From the NCBI GenBank assembly GCA_021777375.1, contig JAJYDV010000001.1, positions 136,864 through 190,885 of the forward strand: a stretch of DNA of 54,022 nt, read 5' to 3'. Source of the stretch: a bacterium. Its GTDB lineage: Bacteria; Patescibacteriota; Saccharimonadia; Saccharimonadales; UBA4665. Below, piece after piece: positions 1,196 to 28,285 of this stretch; the stretch's first letter is position 1, and each line of letters opens with the position of its first letter. Below the pieces are notes generated by a model. That model was not told the DNA's origin and ran no database searches. It saw only the letters and a program-made list of their open reading frames with translations. Position numbers and translations under genes: made by a program.

Positions 1196-1813
1196 CTAAT
1201 TATCTGTGCCACCACCCCCGCCGTCACTTCCACTGCTTGGAGCAGTTATATAAACGGGAGTAATTATCTTCTGAATAATAATTTGGGTTTGAATCTTCGG
1301 AGCAACGGGCTTGGCTACAACTTGAAAGTCATAGTAAGGTAGTGCGGTGTAGTTTGTTGCAAGTCCTACGATGCGGTAAATGCCTGGTTTTTTAAACAGG
1401 TTTGGCCATTTCGCGAAACTTTGTGTGTAGGATTTGCCAGCCGGTATGACTTGCTGTTTAGGTTCTCCGGCGCAAGCGGAGGCAGATGCCCTGTCGTTGA
1501 TGCGAACCCAGGAATTATTGGTCCAGGTGTAAGTATATAGAGGCTGGCCTGGGCAATTATTAATCAGGGTAATCGATTGGCTTAGACCATTTCTTATGGT
1601 GTAAGTTATAGGGTCTCCTACGGTGTACTTTGTTTTGGAAGTGCTCAGTTGTATTGTGCCACTAGCAAAGCTCAGAGTGTTGATACGTTTTACTTGCCAG
1701 TACATAGCAAGAATGAAAGATGTGATCAGTAGGGCGTATAAAAGAGCCCATCCGATTAGCCGTTTTCTTTTATTACGCACGCGTATAGTAGTCAGCGCAC
1801 TAGATTGATTCAT
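1196..1813 (-). CDS. Membrane-anchored protein with extracellular beta-sandwich domain
   Basis: 205 aa from the ATG at 1813, chosen because it forms an ATGA overlap with the stop of the upstream ferric-reductase-like gene; the longer frame would run 70 bp into that gene. A basic stretch (RNKRKR) precedes one transmembrane helix at about residues 20-41. An outside domain follows with the pattern TKYTVGDPITYTIRNGLSQ and a later PAGKS...W, resembling BsuPI-type or similar Ig-like beta-sandwich modules. Two Cys lie in the domain (NNCPGQ and SACAGE) and could form a disulfide. The tail ends Ser/Gly-rich. Last gene of the FNR-ApbE-heme operon, so probably an outside accessory or binding subunit. 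The domain assignment is tentative. Confidence 0.65.
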   Translation of the reverse strand: MNQSSALTTIRVRNKRKRLIGWALLYALLITSFILAMYWQVKRINTLSFASGTIQLSTSKTKYTVGDPITYTIRNGLSQSITLINNCPGQPLYTYTWTNNSWVRINDRASASACAGEPKQQVIPAGKSYTQSFAKWPNLFKKPGIYRIVGLATNYTALPYYDFQVVAKPVAPKIQTQIIIQKIITPVYITAPSSGSDGGGGGTDN

Positions 1814-2565
1814 TCTGCGCGTACTCTCCGGCGCAGTCGGTAAACTATTGCAACGGCTACCGCCACGCCAATTATTATCCATAGAATGCGGAAAATTCCG
1901 TGCATCAAGTCAGTGCCCAGATAAAGTGCATGGAAGAAGACGAAAATCATTGTTAGGTATGCTAAAAAATGAAAGAGCTTCCAGGTATGCGGTTTTTTAT
2001 CTACCCAGAGAATAGAGGTTAAGATGATGGCTATGACGAAATACATCGAGAATACGCCTAGGGCTACGTAAAGCGATCCTAAGTGGTACCCAGCAAAAGA
2101 TACTTCTCGGTAATGCGAAAGGAAAGGCACTAATGCTTGTGCAACCGTGAAAGGTACGTATTTATCAAACAACAATGCAATTACATGTATAGCTCCGGAA
2201 ACGGCGAATACATAGGCAATGGATTTGTGTGTAGCCCAGGCCGTGAGCGGTTCTAAAAATTTAAAACTTGTTCCAGTTATGAAACCTACTCCGGACAGCA
2301 TTAAAAGAGCTAACGAACCGGCAGCCACAAATCCGGCTGCTCGAGTAATATACCAGGGCCAAGACAACTTTGCTCTGGTCGCAAGACGTTTTGAAACTGT
2401 AGGACCCTGAACGGGATTGACTAAAATATCTGGAGGATTTTCGGAGTTTATATTTTGGCTGGTAAGCGAAGTTGTAATCGTACTGGCAAAAACCGTAATG
2501 TTATTACTAAGACCGACAGCTATAAATACAAAAGATAGGATAATTAAAGCGACTAAATTACGCAT
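1810..2565 (-). CDS. Ferric-reductase-like transmembrane b-type heme protein
   Basis: 251 aa. An N-terminal signal-like helix (1-28) leads into a ~40-residue polar linker, then about six membrane helices (roughly 72-240). His113 and His127 lie 14 residues apart on one helix, and His199 and His212 lie 13 apart on another. This is the bis-His spacing that holds two stacked b hemes in the NOX/ferric reductase (PF01794) and MsrQ/YedZ family. It would carry electrons from the cytoplasm outward across the membrane. It has no dehydrogenase domain of its own; the FAD/NAD(P)H part is supplied by the gene two places upstream. Start ATG at 2565 follows the apbE stop by 1 bp. Final acceptor unknown (Fe(III), oxygen or a periplasm-facing protein). 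Confidence 0.8.
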   Translation of the reverse strand: MRNLVALIILSFVFIAVGLSNNITVFASTITTSLTSQNINSENPPDILVNPVQGPTVSKRLATRAKLSWPWYITRAAGFVAAGSLALLMLSGVGFITGTSFKFLEPLTAWATHKSIAYVFAVSGAIHVIALLFDKYVPFTVAQALVPFLSHYREVSFAGYHLGSLYVALGVFSMYFVIAIILTSILWVDKKPHTWKLFHFLAYLTMIFVFFHALYLGTDLMHGIFRILWIIIGVAVAVAIVYRLRRRVRAE

Positions 2566-2566
2566 G

Positions 2567-3520
2567 TTAATTGTTGATTATTATATCATTACCGTAATAA
2601 ACAAGTTTTGGTTCTTGACTAGCCGAGCGACATTGGAAAAGCGCAGACTTAACTCCTTGTTTTTCAAGGAATGGTAGACCTTTTTTGCTTCCAAGTATAA
2701 CCGCGCAACCCGCTAAAACATCAGCTCTTAGAGTCGTATTTGCATATACCGTAGATAACAGTATGTCGGTTCTGGCTGGTTTAGCGGTTTTTGGGTCGAT
2801 AAGATGGTGCCATGATTTTCCATTCTTTTTACCTTGATGTACGGTTATACCGGAAGTTGCGACACCGCTTGGGTTATCGATAAATAGTCTTGCTACCTCT
2901 CTGGTTTGATCAAAGGCACTCTGGATCCCAATATTCCATTTGTCTCCATGTTCATCTCGGCCGCCTACTAAGATATCGCCACCAAAAGATAACCAGTATC
3001 CGGATATTATGCCGGTCAGCACGCCGCGTAGTTGGTCTGCCAGGTAACCTTTACCGCAACCTCCAAGATCTATCGCGGTACCATATGGTATCTTTGCCCA
3101 GTCCTTGCCAATTTCTAGTTTATCAATTGTCGAAATCGATCTTTTGGAATAATCATTAACGGCGTCTAGCTCCCGTCCTGGTACTCGGGAACGAACGTAA
3201 CCGGACAATTGAAGCGCTGGTAGAATAAACGGGTTGTATAAGCCATCGGTTTCTACAGCCATTTCTCTGGCAGCTTTAAGAAGGGCTTTAAAGCTAGGGG
3301 TAATAGTCTGTTTTGTGCCAGCGTTGTTATTAAAAATAGAAAGCTCGCTGCCAGGGAGAAAACGGCTAAATTGCCTTTCAAATATAAATATTTTGCCCCA
3401 AAGTGATCGGAATAATGACTCAACTTGGATTTTTGGAGCTTTACTAACTAGCGAGATTCCAGTCTTGCTCCCGAGTGCAATTGCTTCTTGGTAGTATTGC
3501 ATAGGAGTTCTTAGATACAT
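2567..3520 (-). CDS. apbE: FAD:protein FMN transferase (ApbE family)
   Basis: 317 aa from the ATG at 3520, which overlaps the upstream gene by 10 bp; a longer frame would start at a TTG. ApbE enzymes attach FMN covalently to Ser/Thr of target proteins using FAD and Mg2+. Family marks are the early SRFLPGSELSIFN stretch, DLGGCGKGYLAD (family consensus DLGGIAKGYA), SFGGDI, HHLIDPKTAKPA, and ADVLAGCAVILG carrying the metal-site Asp. There is no signal peptide or lipobox, unlike many exported ApbE proteins, so it probably works in the cytoplasm. No D-x-S/T-G-A-T flavinylation motif is visible in its neighbours, so its target is elsewhere or non-canonical. Second gene of the operon. Confidence 0.9.
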   Translation of the reverse strand: MYLRTPMQYYQEAIALGSKTGISLVSKAPKIQVESLFRSLWGKIFIFERQFSRFLPGSELSIFNNNAGTKQTITPSFKALLKAAREMAVETDGLYNPFILPALQLSGYVRSRVPGRELDAVNDYSKRSISTIDKLEIGKDWAKIPYGTAIDLGGCGKGYLADQLRGVLTGIISGYWLSFGGDILVGGRDEHGDKWNIGIQSAFDQTREVARLFIDNPSGVATSGITVHQGKKNGKSWHHLIDPKTAKPARTDILLSTVYANTTLRADVLAGCAVILGSKKGLPFLEKQGVKSALFQCRSASQEPKLVYYGNDIIINN

Positions 3521-4611
3521 CGACCGGACGGTGTTGTTTGACAAGTTGGTGCCGGAGCTGTTATTGGAGAAGCGTAGATAGGAGCAAGAGTTTGGGTCTG
3601 CAGATTACTGCTGCCGGAACTTACACCGCCACTGCTTGCCGGTGTAGTGGGCGATGTTATAACGTCAGGTGAAGGTGGGATACTATTAACAAGCTGATCA
3701 AGTTGTTGCTGGCGAGCATTGGTAATTAAGTAAGGCGTTGTCTTAGTCGGTTTTAGTGTTGTAGTAGGCGGCAAGTTCCTCAAGAGGTCGCTTACTGTAA
3801 CAGTGAAGGTTCCCAATACTAGACAAATAGCCCCTAATGCATAAACGTTTGACGGCCAACTGCGCAAAATACTAGTTTGTTTTGGAGATGACTGGGTAAA
3901 AGCTTCAGTTAACACGTTGCTTCTAGGTACTCCCTGCTTTGCAAGTAGTCCGGATGAAGCTTTCATAAATACTGGCGGACCGCAAATAAAGAATCGGCGA
4001 TCGTTATATTTTTTGTCAGTTACTTTATCGAGGAGATCTGCCGTAATATATCCGGTTGTAACCTGTTTTTGCGGGAGTTTATCAATTGGGCCATTACCAA
4101 CTACAAAAATGACTTTTAGATTTGGATGCTCAGTCTCAATTGATAAAAGCTCATCTTTAAAAGGTACGTCATCCTGAACGGCGCAGCTATAAAGCAAGGT
4201 AACTTCATTTGTGGCGTTTAAGACGTTTAAGTAGCGCAGGATGCTCATAAATGGCGTAACGCCGATTCCGCCGGCCATAAAAACAGCTTTTTCGTCACGG
4301 ACAGTATCGAAAATGAAGCCTCCAAAGGGCCCACTTATCTCAACTATGTCGCCCTTCTCAAGCTTACTTAAAGCAGTGGTGAACTTGCCGCGAACGCGCA
4401 TGCTGAACTCGAGCTTATGCTGGTCTGTTGGTGAACTAACAATCGAGAAACAGCGGGTGTCTGATTGCTTGCCGTGACGCCTTTCGTAACTAATTGCAGC
4501 ATATTGTCCAGGCTGAAAAGCTAAAGGACGCTCAGATTCGTCACGCAACAAAGTTAACAGTAGCGTTGAAGGAGTAATTTTTGACGTTTCAGATACAGTA
4601 TAGGTGTGCAT
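3511..4611 (-). CDS. NAD(P)H:flavin oxidoreductase (FNR fold) with C-terminal membrane anchor and outside tail
   Basis: 366 aa. Residues 1-240 are a ferredoxin-NADP reductase-type module: FAD-binding RCFS at 53-56, nucleotide-binding GGIGVTPF at 114-121, CGPP at 210-213 and a terminal TEAF. One hydrophobic helix follows at about 256-276, then a ~88-residue Pro/Thr/Ser-rich tail ending in two Cys (357 and 365). With the catalytic domain inside, the tail would lie outside the cell. An anchor placed after the FNR domain is unusual. First gene of the operon with ApbE and the heme protein, so it most likely passes electrons from NAD(P)H to those hemes. A TATAAT box lies 10 nt before the ATG. Confidence 0.85.
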   Translation of the reverse strand: MHTYTVSETSKITPSTLLLTLLRDESERPLAFQPGQYAAISYERRHGKQSDTRCFSIVSSPTDQHKLEFSMRVRGKFTTALSKLEKGDIVEISGPFGGFIFDTVRDEKAVFMAGGIGVTPFMSILRYLNVLNATNEVTLLYSCAVQDDVPFKDELLSIETEHPNLKVIFVVGNGPIDKLPQKQVTTGYITADLLDKVTDKKYNDRRFFICGPPVFMKASSGLLAKQGVPRSNVLTEAFTQSSPKQTSILRSWPSNVYALGAICLVLGTFTVTVSDLLRNLPPTTTLKPTKTTPYLITNARQQQLDQLVNSIPPSPDVITSPTTPASSGGVSSGSSNLQTQTLAPIYASPITAPAPTCQTTPSGRCI

Positions 4612-6241: not shown

Positions 6242-6658
6242 TTAGCGCACTGCTATGCCTACTCCGAAAGAGCTCAACAGAACAAGTAATACGAACACCG
6301 TTACATAGGCCATGCGCTTATCATGAGTTGCTAAAAACAGTTGTGATGATACCGCGACTCTAAGGATTGGCGTGAGTATTAGAAGTAGTATCCCGAGTTC
6401 AATATATGCTAAACCGCTGCCCGATATAAGTCCGGAAAAAAGAGCGCCTGGCGAATGCGGAAAAGTAAAGTTCGAAGCCGTAAACTTGTGGAAAGAACCC
6501 ACTTTAAACGGATTAATTGTTTGATTGTTGAAATGTGCAAAGATAATGATCAGCCCAATAATAATTATTGCTGCACTTAAGCTGACGCCAATACGAAGTA
6601 CGCGGCTAACTAGAGCTTCGATTCTCCAGGTCGGAGTATTTTCGGACGAGCCGGTCAT
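6242..6658 (-). CDS. DUF1634 family membrane protein
   Basis: 138 aa with three membrane helices. The pattern RIEALVSRVLRIGVSLSAA, a central SGLISGSGLAYIELGILLLI and a last helix fits DUF1634 (PF07843). Its start overlaps the stop of the TauE/SafE gene by ATGA, the usual pairing for this family. The partner role in anion export is inferred from that conserved linkage; no activity is established for the domain itself. Confidence 0.85.
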   Translation of the reverse strand: MTGSSENTPTWRIEALVSRVLRIGVSLSAAIIIIGLIIIFAHFNNQTINPFKVGSFHKFTASNFTFPHSPGALFSGLISGSGLAYIELGILLLILTPILRVAVSSQLFLATHDKRMAYVTVFVLLVLLSSFGVGIAVR

Positions 6659-7494
6659 AAGCCAACTCCTCTTTGAATCATCTCAATTGCAACAATAATT
6701 AACACGACTACTAACAGTCTCTGAATTGATTTCGGTGCAATGTGACTTAGCAGACGCGATCCCGGAATAGCCCCTAGCAAAACACCGATCGCTACCGGAG
6801 CGGCAATAAACGGATTAATTTGCCCGCGAGCGAAATAAGCGCCAGCACTAGCGGCGGCCGTTACGCCAATCATAAAGTTACTAGTTGCTGCCGATGCTTT
6901 AATTGGCATATGCATGGCAATGTCCATAGCCGGAACTTTTAGAGAGCCAGACCCAACTCCTAGAAGAGCAGAGACTAAGCCGGCAATGTACATCAAAAAC
7001 AAGCCAAGCTTAGTGTTTTTGACCTTATATATAATCTCTTTTTTCAAGTTGTCGTCGAAGTATGAACCGTGCAAGTTGAGGCTGTTAGCAATTTTGTCAT
7101 TTGAGATTGCAAGTAATTCGGTTTTAGGACTTTTACGTAGCAAAAGAGCAGATGAGTATATTAAAACTACTGCAAATAAGACAAACAACGCCTTATCCGA
7201 TATTTTGGTTATTAAGTAAGCGCCGGATATTGCCCCAAGCGTAGTACCTATCTCGAGAAACATACCAGTACGTAAATTGGTTAAGCGTTCTCTGACATAG
7301 GTAACGGCCGCGCCTGAAGAAGTAGCAATAACAGACAAAAGCGAAGCACCAATAGCTAGCCGGATATCTATGTGGTAGACAAGAGTTAGTATCGGAACAA
7401 TTATAATCCCTCCGCCCAGTCCGACTAAAGACCCGAGCAAGCCTGCGGCAATTGAGATCAATCCCAGCGAAAGTACAAAATCGAACGGAGTCAT
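6655..7494 (-). CDS. TauE/SafE family (sulfite/organosulfur exporter-type) permease
   Basis: 279 aa, eight or so membrane helices in two halves. The first half carries GSLVGLGGGIIIVPIL and the second SALLGVGSGSLKVPAM, the duplicated glycine-rich signature of TauE/SafE (PF01925). About 40 polar residues in the middle form a cytoplasmic loop. Members move sulfite, sulfonates or other small anions; the substrate cannot be read from the sequence. Transcribed with the downstream DUF1634 gene through an ATGA overlap. Confidence 0.9.
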   Translation of the reverse strand: MTPFDFVLSLGLISIAAGLLGSLVGLGGGIIIVPILTLVYHIDIRLAIGASLLSVIATSSGAAVTYVRERLTNLRTGMFLEIGTTLGAISGAYLITKISDKALFVLFAVVLIYSSALLLRKSPKTELLAISNDKIANSLNLHGSYFDDNLKKEIIYKVKNTKLGLFLMYIAGLVSALLGVGSGSLKVPAMDIAMHMPIKASAATSNFMIGVTAAASAGAYFARGQINPFIAAPVAIGVLLGAIPGSRLLSHIAPKSIQRLLVVVLIIVAIEMIQRGVGL

Positions 7495-24350: not shown

Positions 24351-25541
24351 CTAGCTGAATTGTTTACTGCAGATACTGCACTGTTCAGCTTCACCTGCGC
24401 CATAACTAAACCACTGGGGCATAGCTTTACTCCAGGGCTCAAAATAGTGAAAAGCTCTAGCGTCAGCCGCTTGACGGAGCAGCCAGCCAATCCAGCCATA
24501 GATACGAACATGACCCCATGAAATACCCGCCCAACCTTCTCTTACTGGTATAACGGTAATTGGCGGATGTGGAACGTAGCTTTTAAATCGCTTGCCTTTA
24601 GCGCGACGCCTTAGGTTTTCAGCTACAAAGATTGCGTCATATATGGCGGTTTGGGCCATTCCGCTATAAGGTGTATTGGCATTGTCGCCAAGTACAAAGA
24701 TGTTTGGCTCGGCTTGAAGGTAAACATCAGTCGCTACTTTATGGTTATAGCTAAGTGCGAAATTGTTTAGGCTAAAGAAAGGGTTATTGGCCGTTCCGGC
24801 AGTCCAAATAACAGTATGGCTTTGGATTGGCTTGCCATTAACATTAAGTTCATTAGCTGTTTCCCCCTCTACCCTTTTGTTTAGGTAAAGATGGATTCCC
24901 TGACGGCGTAACTGTCGCGCGATAACTCGTCTCATGTCTTTTGACAATTTACTTAAGATTCCAGGTGATGCTTCAACGATATCTATATGGATAGGTCTGT
25001 TTTCCAGGCCGTGCAAATAGGCTGTACGTTGTAAGTAGGCCTTGAGTGCACCAGCTAGTTCAACACCCGTAGGCCCGCCACCGACAATTACGTAGTTGAG
25101 ATCTGGTTTATGGTCGCTTAAAAGTTGAGCGTGCAAATGGGCTTTAAGTTTTTCAACTTCATCAATACTCTTAACACCGTATGAAAGTTCCGCTAGGCCA
25201 GGAATATTAAAATAATTAGTTACTTCACCAAGACCCAAAAGCAATGTGTCATAATAATAGCTCTGTCCGGTTTGGGTAGTCAGGCTTTTATTGTGACGAT
25301 CAATGGAAGATGCATGTCCGTTTCTAAGTGTGACATGTTTACCCTCAAAAATAGTTTTAAGTGGAATCGAAGCGTTGGCTCTCGCGCCGCCGGTTGCTAC
25401 GTGATAAAGCGTGGGAAAGTAGGTAAGGTTGTCAGAGTCGGAAAGCAGTGTAACCTCGAAGTGTGGGTCTTTACAAAGCTCTAATGCAGCCTTTGTCCCG
25501 GCAAAGCCTCCGCCAACAATTAATACTTTTTCTTTTGCCAT
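24351..25541 (-). CDS. ndh: Type II NADH:quinone oxidoreductase (NDH-2)
   Basis: 396 aa. Two Rossmann folds: the FAD-binding VLIVGGGFAGTKAALELC at the N-terminus and NADH-binding YVIVGGGPTGVELAGALKAY near residue 150. The second FAD contact is NIFVLGDNANTPYSGMAQTA. It passes electrons from NADH to membrane quinones without pumping protons. A C-terminal amphipathic part rich in Trp/Tyr probably binds the membrane. The extreme C-terminus has a CSIC pair of unknown role. Divergent from the FAD-linked dehydrogenase, 88 bp away. Confidence 0.92.
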   Translation of the reverse strand: MAKEKVLIVGGGFAGTKAALELCKDPHFEVTLLSDSDNLTYFPTLYHVATGGARANASIPLKTIFEGKHVTLRNGHASSIDRHNKSLTTQTGQSYYYDTLLLGLGEVTNYFNIPGLAELSYGVKSIDEVEKLKAHLHAQLLSDHKPDLNYVIVGGGPTGVELAGALKAYLQRTAYLHGLENRPIHIDIVEASPGILSKLSKDMRRVIARQLRRQGIHLYLNKRVEGETANELNVNGKPIQSHTVIWTAGTANNPFFSLNNFALSYNHKVATDVYLQAEPNIFVLGDNANTPYSGMAQTAIYDAIFVAENLRRRAKGKRFKSYVPHPPITVIPVREGWAGISWGHVRIYGWIGWLLRQAADARAFHYFEPWSKAMPQWFSYGAGEAEQCSICSKQFS

Positions 25542-25629
25542 AATAATTTATACCTATTATATAGCTTATGGTTGTTTTTTGTAACAGCCTTGCTCTAATG
25601 AAGCTTAAGCCTTATGCTTAAATATTGGA

Positions 25630-27297
25630 ATGACTAAAAACTTACAGGAATTAATTAAAGCTAGCGGTTTTCAAGGCGAGATCGATGACTCGTCTCCGAC
25701 TATCGATAACTATAGTCACGATGCGTCATTATTTGAGATACGACCAAAAATTGTTGTCTTTCCTAAGGACTCTAAAGATATTGAAAAATTAGTGCGGTCC
25801 GTAAAAGATCAGAAGCGTTGGGACAAAAGTTTATCTTTGACTGCCCGATCAGCCGGAACTGACATGGCCGGAGGGGCAATAAATGACTCAATTATTGTTG
25901 ATTTTAGGCGCTATTTTACAAAAATTGAAAAAGTAACCTCGAGCATGGGTCATGCTCAGCCTGGTGTACTGTATAAGGACTTCGAAGTTGAAACTCTTAA
26001 AAACGGAGCCTTAATGCCGACCTTTCCAGCCTCTAGGGATTTGGCCTCGATTGGCGGCATGGTAGCTAATAATTCCGGTGGTGAGAAGTCGCTTGAGTAC
26101 GGCAAAACTAAAGATTTTATTGAGGAGCTAAAGCTGGTCTTTGCCGACGGCATTGAACGTAGCGTTAAGCCTATTAACAAAGAACGACTTGATGAAATAA
26201 TGGCTCAAGAAGATTTCGAAGGTGAGGTTTATCGAAAGATCTATGAGTTATGCGAGAAGAATTACGATTTAATTAAATCCGCTAGGCCTAAAGTAAGCAA
26301 AAACTCCATGGGCTATACGCTATGGGAGGTATGGGACCGAGAAACCGGTATTTTTGATTTAACAAAGCTTATTGTCGGCAGCGAAGGTACGCTCGGATTA
26401 GTTACCGATATCACCTTTCGTTTAGTACCAAATGTCCCACACTCAGGATTGCTAGTACTCTTTTTAAGAGACATTGATGATTTAGGGGAATTGATCCCAA
26501 CTGTTTTGTCGCACAAGCCGGCAACAGTCGAAAGTTTTGACGATCAGACACTTTGGCTATCGATTCGTTTTATGCCTAGCTTTCTTAAATTACTCGGTCC
26601 AGTCCGGTTTATTCATTTATTATTGAGTTTAATTCCTGATGGATGGCAACTGCTAAAGGGTGTACCGAAACTTATTGTTATGGTTGAGTTTACTGCCCAA
26701 ACGGAGTCTGAAGTGAGAGATAAAATTAAGGCTCTCCATAAGGAACTAAAGGATAAAAGAGCGCGTTATGAGATAAATGGTTTCGAGGAAGATGCAACAG
26801 AGGGCAAAAGCGAGAAATTCTGGGTAATGCGACGGCAAAGTTTCAACTTGCTCAGGAGTAAGGTTAAAGACAAGCACACTGCGCCATTTATTGACGATCT
26901 TGTAGTCAACCCTGAGTATTTAGTAGATTTCTTGCCCAAAATGCGCAAAATTATTGCAAAATACAATTTATTCGCAACTATTGCCGGGCATTTGGGAGAC
27001 GGTAATTTTCACATTATTCCGTTAATGAAGCTAGAAAATAAGGCTGAAAGAGATACCATGCTGCCGGCGATGAAGGAAGTAAATGAGCTGGTTCTTAGTT
27101 ATCACGGCTCTCTTTCAGGTGAGCATAATGATGGCTTAATTAGAGGTCCTTGGTTAGGTAAACAATTTGGTTCCGAGATGCTTAAATTATTTAAAGATGT
27201 AAAACATATTTTTGATCCAAGTAATATATTTAATCCGCATAAGAAAACTGATTCGGACTGGGACTATAGTTATTCCCATATCCGCGATCATTTCTAA
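25630..27297 (+). CDS. FAD-linked oxidase, D-lactate/glycolate dehydrogenase type
   Basis: 555 aa. The N-terminal FAD_binding_4 (PCMH) domain has PKIVVFPKDSKDIEKLVRSV, then RSAGTDMAGGAIN and SIGGMVANNSGGEKSLEYG, with IVGSEGTLGLVTDITFRLV. The C-terminal FAD-oxidase domain has ATIAGHLGDGNFHIIPL and LSGEHNDGLIRGPW, the latter with active-site-type His and Glu. It ends IFDPSNIFNPHKK. Such enzymes oxidise D-lactate or other 2-hydroxy acids and reduce quinones. The substrate is not fixed by sequence; D-lactate is favoured because it is a common fermentation product. No 4Fe-4S domain. Confidence 0.88.
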   Translation: MTKNLQELIKASGFQGEIDDSSPTIDNYSHDASLFEIRPKIVVFPKDSKDIEKLVRSVKDQKRWDKSLSLTARSAGTDMAGGAINDSIIVDFRRYFTKIEKVTSSMGHAQPGVLYKDFEVETLKNGALMPTFPASRDLASIGGMVANNSGGEKSLEYGKTKDFIEELKLVFADGIERSVKPINKERLDEIMAQEDFEGEVYRKIYELCEKNYDLIKSARPKVSKNSMGYTLWEVWDRETGIFDLTKLIVGSEGTLGLVTDITFRLVPNVPHSGLLVLFLRDIDDLGELIPTVLSHKPATVESFDDQTLWLSIRFMPSFLKLLGPVRFIHLLLSLIPDGWQLLKGVPKLIVMVEFTAQTESEVRDKIKALHKELKDKRARYEINGFEEDATEGKSEKFWVMRRQSFNLLRSKVKDKHTAPFIDDLVVNPEYLVDFLPKMRKIIAKYNLFATIAGHLGDGNFHIIPLMKLENKAERDTMLPAMKEVNELVLSYHGSLSGEHNDGLIRGPWLGKQFGSEMLKLFKDVKHIFDPSNIFNPHKKTDSDWDYSYSHIRDHF

Positions 27298-27433
27298 CCA
27301 TTTTTGGGTGTCAACACTATATACTGGTGGTTATGATATGAGTTGGCGTATCTTTTTGGATAATGTTTAATTTAAGCTAGCGTCTGATATTAATCCTTAA
27401 TAAGTATATGTATGATCAAAAGAATTATTAACT

Positions 27434-28285
27434 ATGATTAAGAAGTTAAATGATTACTATACTCTAGCAAAACCAGGCATGGTGTACGGTAATTTATTAA
27501 CTGCTGTTGCCGGTTATTTATTTGCCTCTAGACTTTCACTAAATTGGGCAGTGTTCTTGGCCATGTGCGCAGGGACGACGTTAATTATGGGATCGGCTTG
27601 TTCCCTAAATAATTTATTTGATCGGGATATTGACGTTATTATGGAGCGCACAAGTAAACGCCCCTCAGCTAACAGAACCATACCTTTTTTGTCAGGAATT
27701 ATTTTTGCAATTATTCTTGGTGTCCTGGGGATTGCCTTGCTCGCGTTGTTTGTAAATTGGCTGTGTGTTGCAATCGGATTAATTGGCTTTATTGACTATG
27801 CATTAATCTACACGTATTTTAAGCGGAAGACCTATCATTCAACTCTAATTGGTTCCATTGCTGGGGCTATGCCGATTGTTGGTGGCTATGTGGCGTACGC
27901 AGGCCATTTAGACGGAGCAAGCCTTATTGTCGGGCTAATGATGCTACTTTGGCAAATGCCTCACTTTTATGCCATTGCACTTTTTCGAGAGTCCGATTAT
28001 CGCAAAGCGAAGATTCCACTTTTGCCGATAGTCAAAGGTTATGCGGCAACTACTAATGCGATGGCAGTATATAATTTGCTTTTTTCCGTCGCCGTAATTA
28101 GTCTCTACTTCTATTCTAAGCTGAGTGTTATCTATGTTATCGTGCTCGGAATTGCCTCACTTGCTTGGTTGATCTATAACTTTAAAGGTCGGAAACTTAA
28201 CTTTTTAAAAACTTGGGCTCGGAAAAGTTTTGTTTACTCTTTATTAGTTGTGGTTTTGATGTCGGTAATGTTAGCCCTTCGCTAA
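27434..28285 (+). CDS. ctaB: Protoheme IX farnesyltransferase (heme O synthase)
   Basis: 283 aa, eight or nine membrane helices of the UbiA prenyltransferase superfamily. First Asp-rich motif: NNLFDRDIDVIMERTSKRP; second: FIDYALIYTYFKRKTYHST; and LWQMPHFYAIALF is typical of CtaB. It farnesylates heme b to heme O for bo3- or aa3-type oxidases, so such an oxidase should exist elsewhere in the genome. Lies next to ndh and the FAD-linked dehydrogenase. Stop interlocks by 4 bp with that of the convergent histidine kinase. Confidence 0.95.
   Translation: MIKKLNDYYTLAKPGMVYGNLLTAVAGYLFASRLSLNWAVFLAMCAGTTLIMGSACSLNNLFDRDIDVIMERTSKRPSANRTIPFLSGIIFAIILGVLGIALLALFVNWLCVAIGLIGFIDYALIYTYFKRKTYHSTLIGSIAGAMPIVGGYVAYAGHLDGASLIVGLMMLLWQMPHFYAIALFRESDYRKAKIPLLPIVKGYAATTNAMAVYNLLFSVAVISLYFYSKLSVIYVIVLGIASLAWLIYNFKGRKLNFLKTWARKSFVYSLLVVVLMSVMLALR

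Follow-up and report, generated by a model that had tools for sequence, protein, structure and literature searches.

A split NOX/ferric-reductase-like operon of Saccharibacteria with a candidate flavin acceptor on its reductase tail

What would an FMN transferase load with flavin when its gene lies between the two halves of a probable membrane electron route and no FMN_bind domain is encoded beside it? The question is raised by a four-gene operon at positions 1196-4611 of a 54,022-nucleotide stretch of DNA (the window; contig JAJYDV010000001.1 of assembly GCA_021777375.1, positions 136,864 to 190,885), which comes from a 724-kb genome in 15 contigs that is 97.9% complete and whose relatives among public genomes are mostly labelled Candidatus Saccharibacteria. 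Four minus-strand open reading frames (ORFs) lie end to end and encode a protein of the NAD(P)H:flavin reductase type (FNR), the FMN transferase ApbE, a ferric-reductase-domain protein (FRD), and a membrane-anchored immunoglobulin-like (Ig-like) protein. We propose that they encode a split NADPH oxidase (NOX)/ferric-reductase-like route that carries electrons from NAD(P)H out through the membrane, with flavin mononucleotide (FMN) loaded by ApbE onto the tail of the FNR, a reading that we hold at just short of an even chance. The features on which the argument rests are the following.

3511..4611, minus strand: NAD(P)H:flavin reductase of the FNR type (366 aa), whose single C-terminal membrane helix is followed by a long tail rich in Ser, Thr and Pro; Pfam PF00970/PF00175 (FAD_binding_6/NAD_binding_1), RCFS and GIGVTP motifs, conserved as first operon gene
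3781..3849, minus strand: the one membrane helix predicted for the FNR (residues 255-277, approximately), the tail beyond it probably outside; from the sequence and an alignment of relatives
3514..3543, minus strand: CQTTPSGRCI, the peptide that closes the FNR tail and a candidate acceptor for ApbE; conserved tail end in relatives
2567..3502, minus strand: ApbE, a predicted FAD:protein FMN transferase of the cytosolic type, lacking a signal peptide, 311 aa; PF02424 (E=7.5e-45) and ApbE matches in PDB
1810..2565, minus strand: FRD, short, 251 aa, four heme histidines and six predicted helices; PF01794, model pLDDT 84.9, SpNOX match at Z 13.2
2227..2229, minus strand: codon of FRD H113, predicted inner heme ligand; invariant in 51 FRDs
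2185..2187, minus strand: codon of FRD H127, predicted outer heme ligand; invariant in 51 FRDs
1969..1971, minus strand: codon of FRD H199, predicted inner heme ligand; invariant in 51 FRDs
1930..1932, minus strand: codon of FRD H212, predicted outer heme ligand; invariant in 51 FRDs
1196..1813, minus strand: membrane-anchored Ig-like (Big_14-like) protein, 205 aa from ATG 1813, with a conserved Cys pair; Big_14 at E=0.002, found only in operon subfamily A

Conservation of the operon in relatives

A preliminary description of this DNA had pointed to four tightly spaced minus-strand genes, and their frames, strands and coordinates were as it gave them: 8 bp separate the FNR stop from the ApbE ATG at 3502, 1 bp separates the ApbE stop from the FRD, and the FRD and anchored-protein genes overlap by 4 bp. 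An alternative TTG start at 3544 would give an ApbE of 325 aa, with ATG 3502 likelier and matching relatives; by the same comparison the mechanically called start of the anchored protein at 1882 is too long, and ATG 1813 is preferred. Searching with the FRD, we found matches in 36 of the 149 genomes of the order with a single query and in 59 of 393 genomes with an alignment query (E<=1e-8), most of the genomes compared being metagenome-assembled genomes (MAGs). A scan of 84,980 species genomes returned 50 loci, of which one carries the label Parcubacteria (L168; identifiers with L and G are the locus and genome ids of this analysis) and nearly all come from Saccharibacteria or unnamed MAGs. 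Among all fetched loci, FNR and ApbE lie directly upstream of the FRD in 55 of the 66 distinct FRD loci, a recurrence beyond chance, so that the gene order passed, across the order, the test of retention in relatives set for it beforehand.

The fourth gene, by contrast, did not keep the place first given to it in the unit. It is found downstream in 35 of those 55 loci, outside the universal core, and marks only one of two operon subfamilies (A with the anchored protein, B without), many genomes carrying one of each. Seven of the 11 FRD loci without the full order are interrupted by the end of a contig or of the fetched window. Real exceptions are G136, in which FNR and FRD are adjacent and ApbE sits on another contig, and L176, L180 and L183, in which an FRD without its own FNR or ApbE is convergent with an FMN_bind-ApbE-RnfD/FNR cluster. 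In all complete loci the heme and dehydrogenase parts are separate genes, unlike the single chain of NOX. Compared in pairs, 44 complete operons average 40% identity in FNR, 43% in ApbE and 49% in FRD, and the pairwise distances of the three proteins correlate (Mantel r 0.86-0.91, 0 of 1000 permutations), as would be expected of a unit inherited together, although shared ancestry alone gives such values too. The literature yielded no description of such an operon for Saccharibacteria or Patescibacteria. On contig DAHXLE010000011 (L233/L146/L173), and also in L226, an A-type operon, an NQR/RNF-like FMN_bind cluster and a B-type operon adjoin one another as a flavin electron-transfer island.

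The heme protein and the inner part of the route

The FRD matched PF01794 (Ferric_reduct) at 26.5 bits (E=7.4e-6) in the protein scan, just below the cut-off, and at 28.1 bits in the genome search, above the cut-off of 28. The histidines proposed earlier as heme ligands, H113/H127 and H199/H212, were confirmed in the sequence, and in an alignment of 51 FRDs all four are invariant (H113-x13-H127 and H199-x12-H212) along with W71, R75, G98 and G217, while D134 and D219 are near-invariant. Two His-X12/14-His pairs within six helices characterize NOX (Hajjar 2017, PMC5676040), and both the FRD and its model (pLDDT 84.9, six helices) have this arrangement. The best structural match of the model was SpNOX (Z 13.2 over 153 residues, 3.4 Å, 18% identity; for helical bundles a Z near 13 is not proof alone), followed by cytochrome b561, NOX5, STEAP and NOX2. 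Foldseek alone also ranked NOX first, with E values above 0.01 throughout, and a PDB sequence search with the FRD gave nothing useful. As the PF01794 match and the pattern of histidines point the same way as the model fold, the FRD is likened to the membrane half of NOX or ferric reductase and probably works as one; the conserved cluster and the fold model thus support the split NOX/ferric-reductase-like unit of the preliminary description.

By homology to NOX and FRE, the inner part of the route very probably starts with cytosolic NAD(P)H reducing the FNR flavin, from which electrons would pass to the inner FRD heme (H113/H199) and then to the outer one (H127/H212). The membrane helix of the FNR would keep this reductase next to the FRD and so within its reach.

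Could the chain be a genuine NADPH oxidase that produces extracellular superoxide? The NOX-like fold and histidine spacing fit such an enzyme, as do a GIGVTP-like NADPH motif in 44 of 45 FNRs and R75, which lies near the outer face and resembles a conserved NOX arginine (by alignment with NOX2). However, the NOX FAD motif H[PSA]F[TS][LIMV] (Hajjar 2017, PMC5676040) is absent from all 45 FNRs, 43 of which read RxFS there. According to Zhang 2013 (PMC3591440), the residues that separate superoxide-making NOX from metal reductases are H101, H119, T178 and G179 of NOX2; placed by hand against NOX2, FRD H113 matches H101, with L131 at H119 and G170-V/I171 at T178-G179, leaving three of the four absent. 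We consider a superoxide-making oxidase improbable, as these signature residues speak against a dedicated superoxide maker; Fe(III), oxygen and partner molecules, the acceptors named at first, are all still candidates.

The pairing of FNR and FRD also recalls the two-part architecture described for MsrQ and Fre (PMC5676040), and would suit an MsrPQ-like repair system in which the FRD supplied electrons to an exported methionine sulfoxide reductase. This we find barely credible: MsrQ/YedZ has its first canonical histidine replaced by Arg (PMC3591440), whereas H113 is invariant in the 51 FRDs, and no MsrP-like gene was recognized in the operon or its conserved surroundings (no genome-wide MsrP search was made).

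The anchored protein of subfamily A has a weak Big_14 match in the window (E=0.002) and one above the cut-off in L043, and its C87 and C114 are invariant; its model (pLDDT 85.5) matched Ig-like folds only at Z of about 8-9, from which its function does not follow. Other FRD-related genes were also seen. A second FRD-like family of about 206-216 aa occurs in many Saccharimonadales without adjoining FNR or ApbE (L018:1495-2118, L021:1120-1746, L026:1102-1752, L239:4861-5481), and in G117 the C-terminal part of a CrcB fluoride-channel-like protein (PF02537; L054:6172-6774) is the second half of an FRD with the second His pair only, making this either a fusion or an assembly chimera.

The reductase tail, ApbE and candidate flavin sites

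The FNR helix and Cys-ended tail noted in the window are real and conserved in relatives. Behind the FNR domain comes one predicted helix, which places the tail probably outside the membrane, and then a Ser/Thr/Pro-rich stretch of about 45-150 residues; the body of this tail cannot be aligned among relatives, but its end can. An A-type end, C-x-T-[TS]-x-S-G-x(1-3)-C-x, closes 28 of 56 tails (none when shuffled) and a B-type end, P-x-[ST]-x-x-S, closes 18 (about one when shuffled), giving 46 tails with a strict end of either type; most of the other ten deviate from these only a little, for example PRTTVS-VPRP, PKTRAS-VPPP and PRGGAS. In 16 of the 18 B-type ends, Val or Ala precedes the last Ser, although the pattern left that residue free. 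Only 49 of 855 distinct ORFs in the fetched loci end in this way: 44 operon FNRs (one start-truncated), four small membrane proteins and one stray. We also considered a general C-terminal sorting signal, which has no support among the 855 ORFs.

Similar ends recur outside the operon proper. In L229-L232, FRD-ApbE clusters of other Patescibacteria classes that have no tailed FNR, a membrane protein of 123-142 aa ends in PVTTKTS, PVTKTS, PKTRTS or PKTKTS; in three of these loci (L230:6667-7098, L231:3072-3572, L232:6403-6870) the small conserved-end protein is adjoined by an acidic membrane protein whose DxDxDG-type repeats look like those that bind calcium. In G114 (L044:741-2150) the FNR tail runs into a Peptidase_S74 domain (PF13884, E=1.3e-7) right after PVTTAS. 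Peptidase_S74, otherwise known from phage tail spikes, cleaves itself at its own start, before its Ser-Asp; cleavage in this single case would leave PVTTAS as the new end.

Judged by PF02424 and its conserved FAD- and metal-site residues, the operon ApbE is a predicted FAD:protein FMN transferase, and it keeps the family motifs GGxGKGYxxD, GGD and ATS, H247, and the metal Asp (D275, 45/45). An orphan ApbE of the operon type, with the ATP synthase operon on one side and an mscL-like gene on the other, occurs in G109, a genome of the same genus without an FRD match (L108:4774-5676); its ATSG motif reads STTD.

As to what the operon ApbE modifies, the preliminary description had seen no flavinylation motif nearby. 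For FMN_bind this holds within the operons, where neither PF04205 nor a wider model built from eight sequences found one (PF04205 was not used alone because it misses divergent FMN_bind proteins such as L109), but not for the whole source genome. One FMN_bind protein (motif ITGAT; L001/L036) is encoded there on contig C3, unlinked to the operon, in an NQR/RNF-like cluster that also includes an RnfD-FNR fusion and has an ApbE to itself. The chief rival explanation keeps the electron route but makes the tail a signal for docking or surface retention, with ApbE acting on an unlinked FMN_bind protein (in the source genome, that of contig C3) or on an unrecognized flavinylation site. The FMN_bind protein and NqrB/RnfD-FNR fusion elsewhere in the source genome speak for it, as does the fact that the operon and NQR-like cluster are neighbors in some genomes (L146/L173/L233 and L226), and a conserved C-terminal peptide on a long linker fits protein docking as well. 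Against it, the FMN_bind cluster has an ApbE of its own, and NqrB/RnfD, another ApbE target, is missing from 11 of the 14 operon genomes tested. With PF04205, no FMN_bind was found in 27 of 51 FRD-carrying genomes; the wider model recovered true ones in two of these 27 (G016 and G323) and elsewhere gave weak matches to the membrane helix and linker only. Sixteen FRD-carrying genomes, at least 93% complete and with at most 3% contamination, have no FMN_bind by two models. Because such genomes are without FMN_bind, the partner of the operon ApbE cannot be FMN_bind in many genomes. We regard docking or retention, with ApbE acting elsewhere, as a serious possibility, though one well below even.

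The alternative that we favor places the flavin on the tail itself. ApbE recognizes D-x-x-[ST]-G-A-[ST] and attaches FMN to the last Ser/Thr; a seven-residue tag suffices, best at the protein end, and the motif tolerates Asp to Ala, with about half the yield for Ala to Val or Gly to Ala (PMC12052999). The B-type end [ST]-x-[AV]-S resembles this acceptor motif closely, the A-type end less so, and it is from this closeness that we propose a route with tail-bound FMN. After the outer heme, electrons would pass to a flavin that the operon ApbE has attached to the conserved end of the extracellular FNR tail, the end being a natural C-terminal flavin tag in place of the FMN_bind protein of related systems; this step, suggested by genomic context and motif resemblance, we hold tentatively, at somewhat less than even. 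The flexible arm would then reduce an acceptor outside, for which iron, a quinone or a compound of a partner cell are candidates. The covalent FMN at a non-standard site suggested earlier has thus gained a concrete candidate in the conserved tail peptide, its attachment being putative.

Two comparisons were counted in favor of tail-bound FMN or accord with it. The exceptional FRDs of L176, L180 and L183, which have no FNR or ApbE of their own and lie beside an FMN_bind-ApbE-RnfD/FNR cluster, were counted for it. In addition, the order has a third ApbE-linked type, a fused FRD-FNR with ApbE and a divergent FMN_bind (L109, L110, L112), and in all three systems linked to ApbE one protein is anchored in the membrane and has a linker rich in Ser and Thr, ending in FMN_bind in two of them and in the conserved peptide in the third.

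Several observations weigh against tail-bound FMN. The tails have no canonical Asp of the ApbE motif and, save GGAS in L187, no Gly, reading [ST]-x-[AV]-S or T-[TS]-x-S-G in place of Gly-Ala before the acceptor, and the A-type and B-type ends differ from each other. The patterns were written after the tails had been seen, and their specificity was checked on fetched loci, not whole genomes. Four residues after the metal Asp, where Thr is usual, relatives of the window ApbE have Ser (29), Lys (14) or Thr (1), whereas the window has Gly (G279), alone among 45. ApbE has no room for a signal peptide, yet the tail should be outside, a puzzle that applies equally to the FMN_bind proteins of these genomes. 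Finally, G136 retains the tail motif though its ApbE sits on another contig.

The flavin might instead sit on the FRD itself, in the conserved loop T97-G98-x-[T/S]100 before the first heme helix. Some relatives read ITGATF there, which is the FMN_bind motif of the same order, residue 100 is Thr or Ser in 43 of 51 FRDs, and the three FRDs without their own ApbE carry Ile at that place. However, five ApbE-bearing loci have Ala or Val at residue 100, FRD-ApbE pairs from other classes have lost the motif, and G136 keeps it though its ApbE is elsewhere. We set the loop aside as a flavin site, since it is kept neither in all ApbE-bearing loci nor in other classes, and consider it very improbable.

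Returning to the FNR tail, we suggest, with appreciable doubt, that its end is a natural flavin tag bearing FMN on its Ser/Thr, a tethered arm from the outer heme to extracellular acceptors, and that the design is common to Patescibacteria classes, with the tail on the FNR or on a small membrane protein encoded separately. Should FMN sit on the tail, natural substrates of ApbE would not require a folded domain, and very small, probably host-dependent cells would have a cheap wire for reducing iron or partner molecules outside. The candidate phyla radiation has been described as strikingly poor in extracytosolic flavinylation (PMC8238504); the conserved ApbE-FRD unit extends across Saccharibacteria and, in different forms, into further Patescibacteria classes, often without any FMN_bind.

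Elsewhere in the window, a TauE/SafE permease and a DUF1634 protein lie upstream of the operon (6242-7494), their conservation with it not being seen, and an NDH-2-like dehydrogenase, an FAD-linked oxidase and a UbiA-family gene (possibly heme O synthase) lie at 24351-28285. COX1 was not found in the source genome and is present in 161 of 393 relatives.

Comparison with known systems

The split design has precedents: a two-part MsrQ and Fre system (PMC5676040) and ApbE-linked PF01794 clusters (PMC8238504) were already described. The NOX-like MsrQ and Fre system (cited in PMC5676040) has, as here, its FRD and flavin reductase on separate chains; unlike the operon, it has no ApbE and no membrane-anchored reductase, and its MsrQ, without the first heme histidine, feeds MsrP. 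Bacterial NOX such as SpNOX share the six-helix bis-heme bundle (Z 13.2) and histidine spacing of the FRD, but NOX is one chain, and its FAD motif and NOX-marking residues are absent from the operon. Bacterial short FRDs (Zhang 2013, PMC3591440) are, like ours, FRD-only chains with four heme histidines, and the accessible part of that study describes no ApbE/FNR operon of this kind for them.

Closer in gene content are the MsrQ-like flavinylation clusters (Meheust 2021, PMC8238504), which combine a PF01794 heme protein, ApbE and an NAD(P)H-dependent FNR module as the operon does, and of which a fused FRD-FNR version with an FMN_bind-like protein occurs in the same order (L109, L110, L112). By comparison, the FNR of the operon forms a chain by itself and brings its own helix and tail, the FRD is NOX-like with four histidines, and no FMN-binding-domain gene lies inside the operons, where the tail peptide would take its place. 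Partial NQR/RNF-like flavinylation systems (PMC8238504) are present in the source genome itself, on contig C3, as FMN_bind, ApbE and an RnfD-FNR fusion; unlike the operon, they have an NqrB/RnfD membrane part instead of a heme protein, FMN_bind is present, and the FNR has no tail. The engineered Flavin-tag, a seven-residue ApbE tag (PMC12052999), makes a short terminal peptide biochemically feasible as an FMN carrier, and the FNR tail, with its relaxed motif, would be a putative flavin carrier of natural origin.

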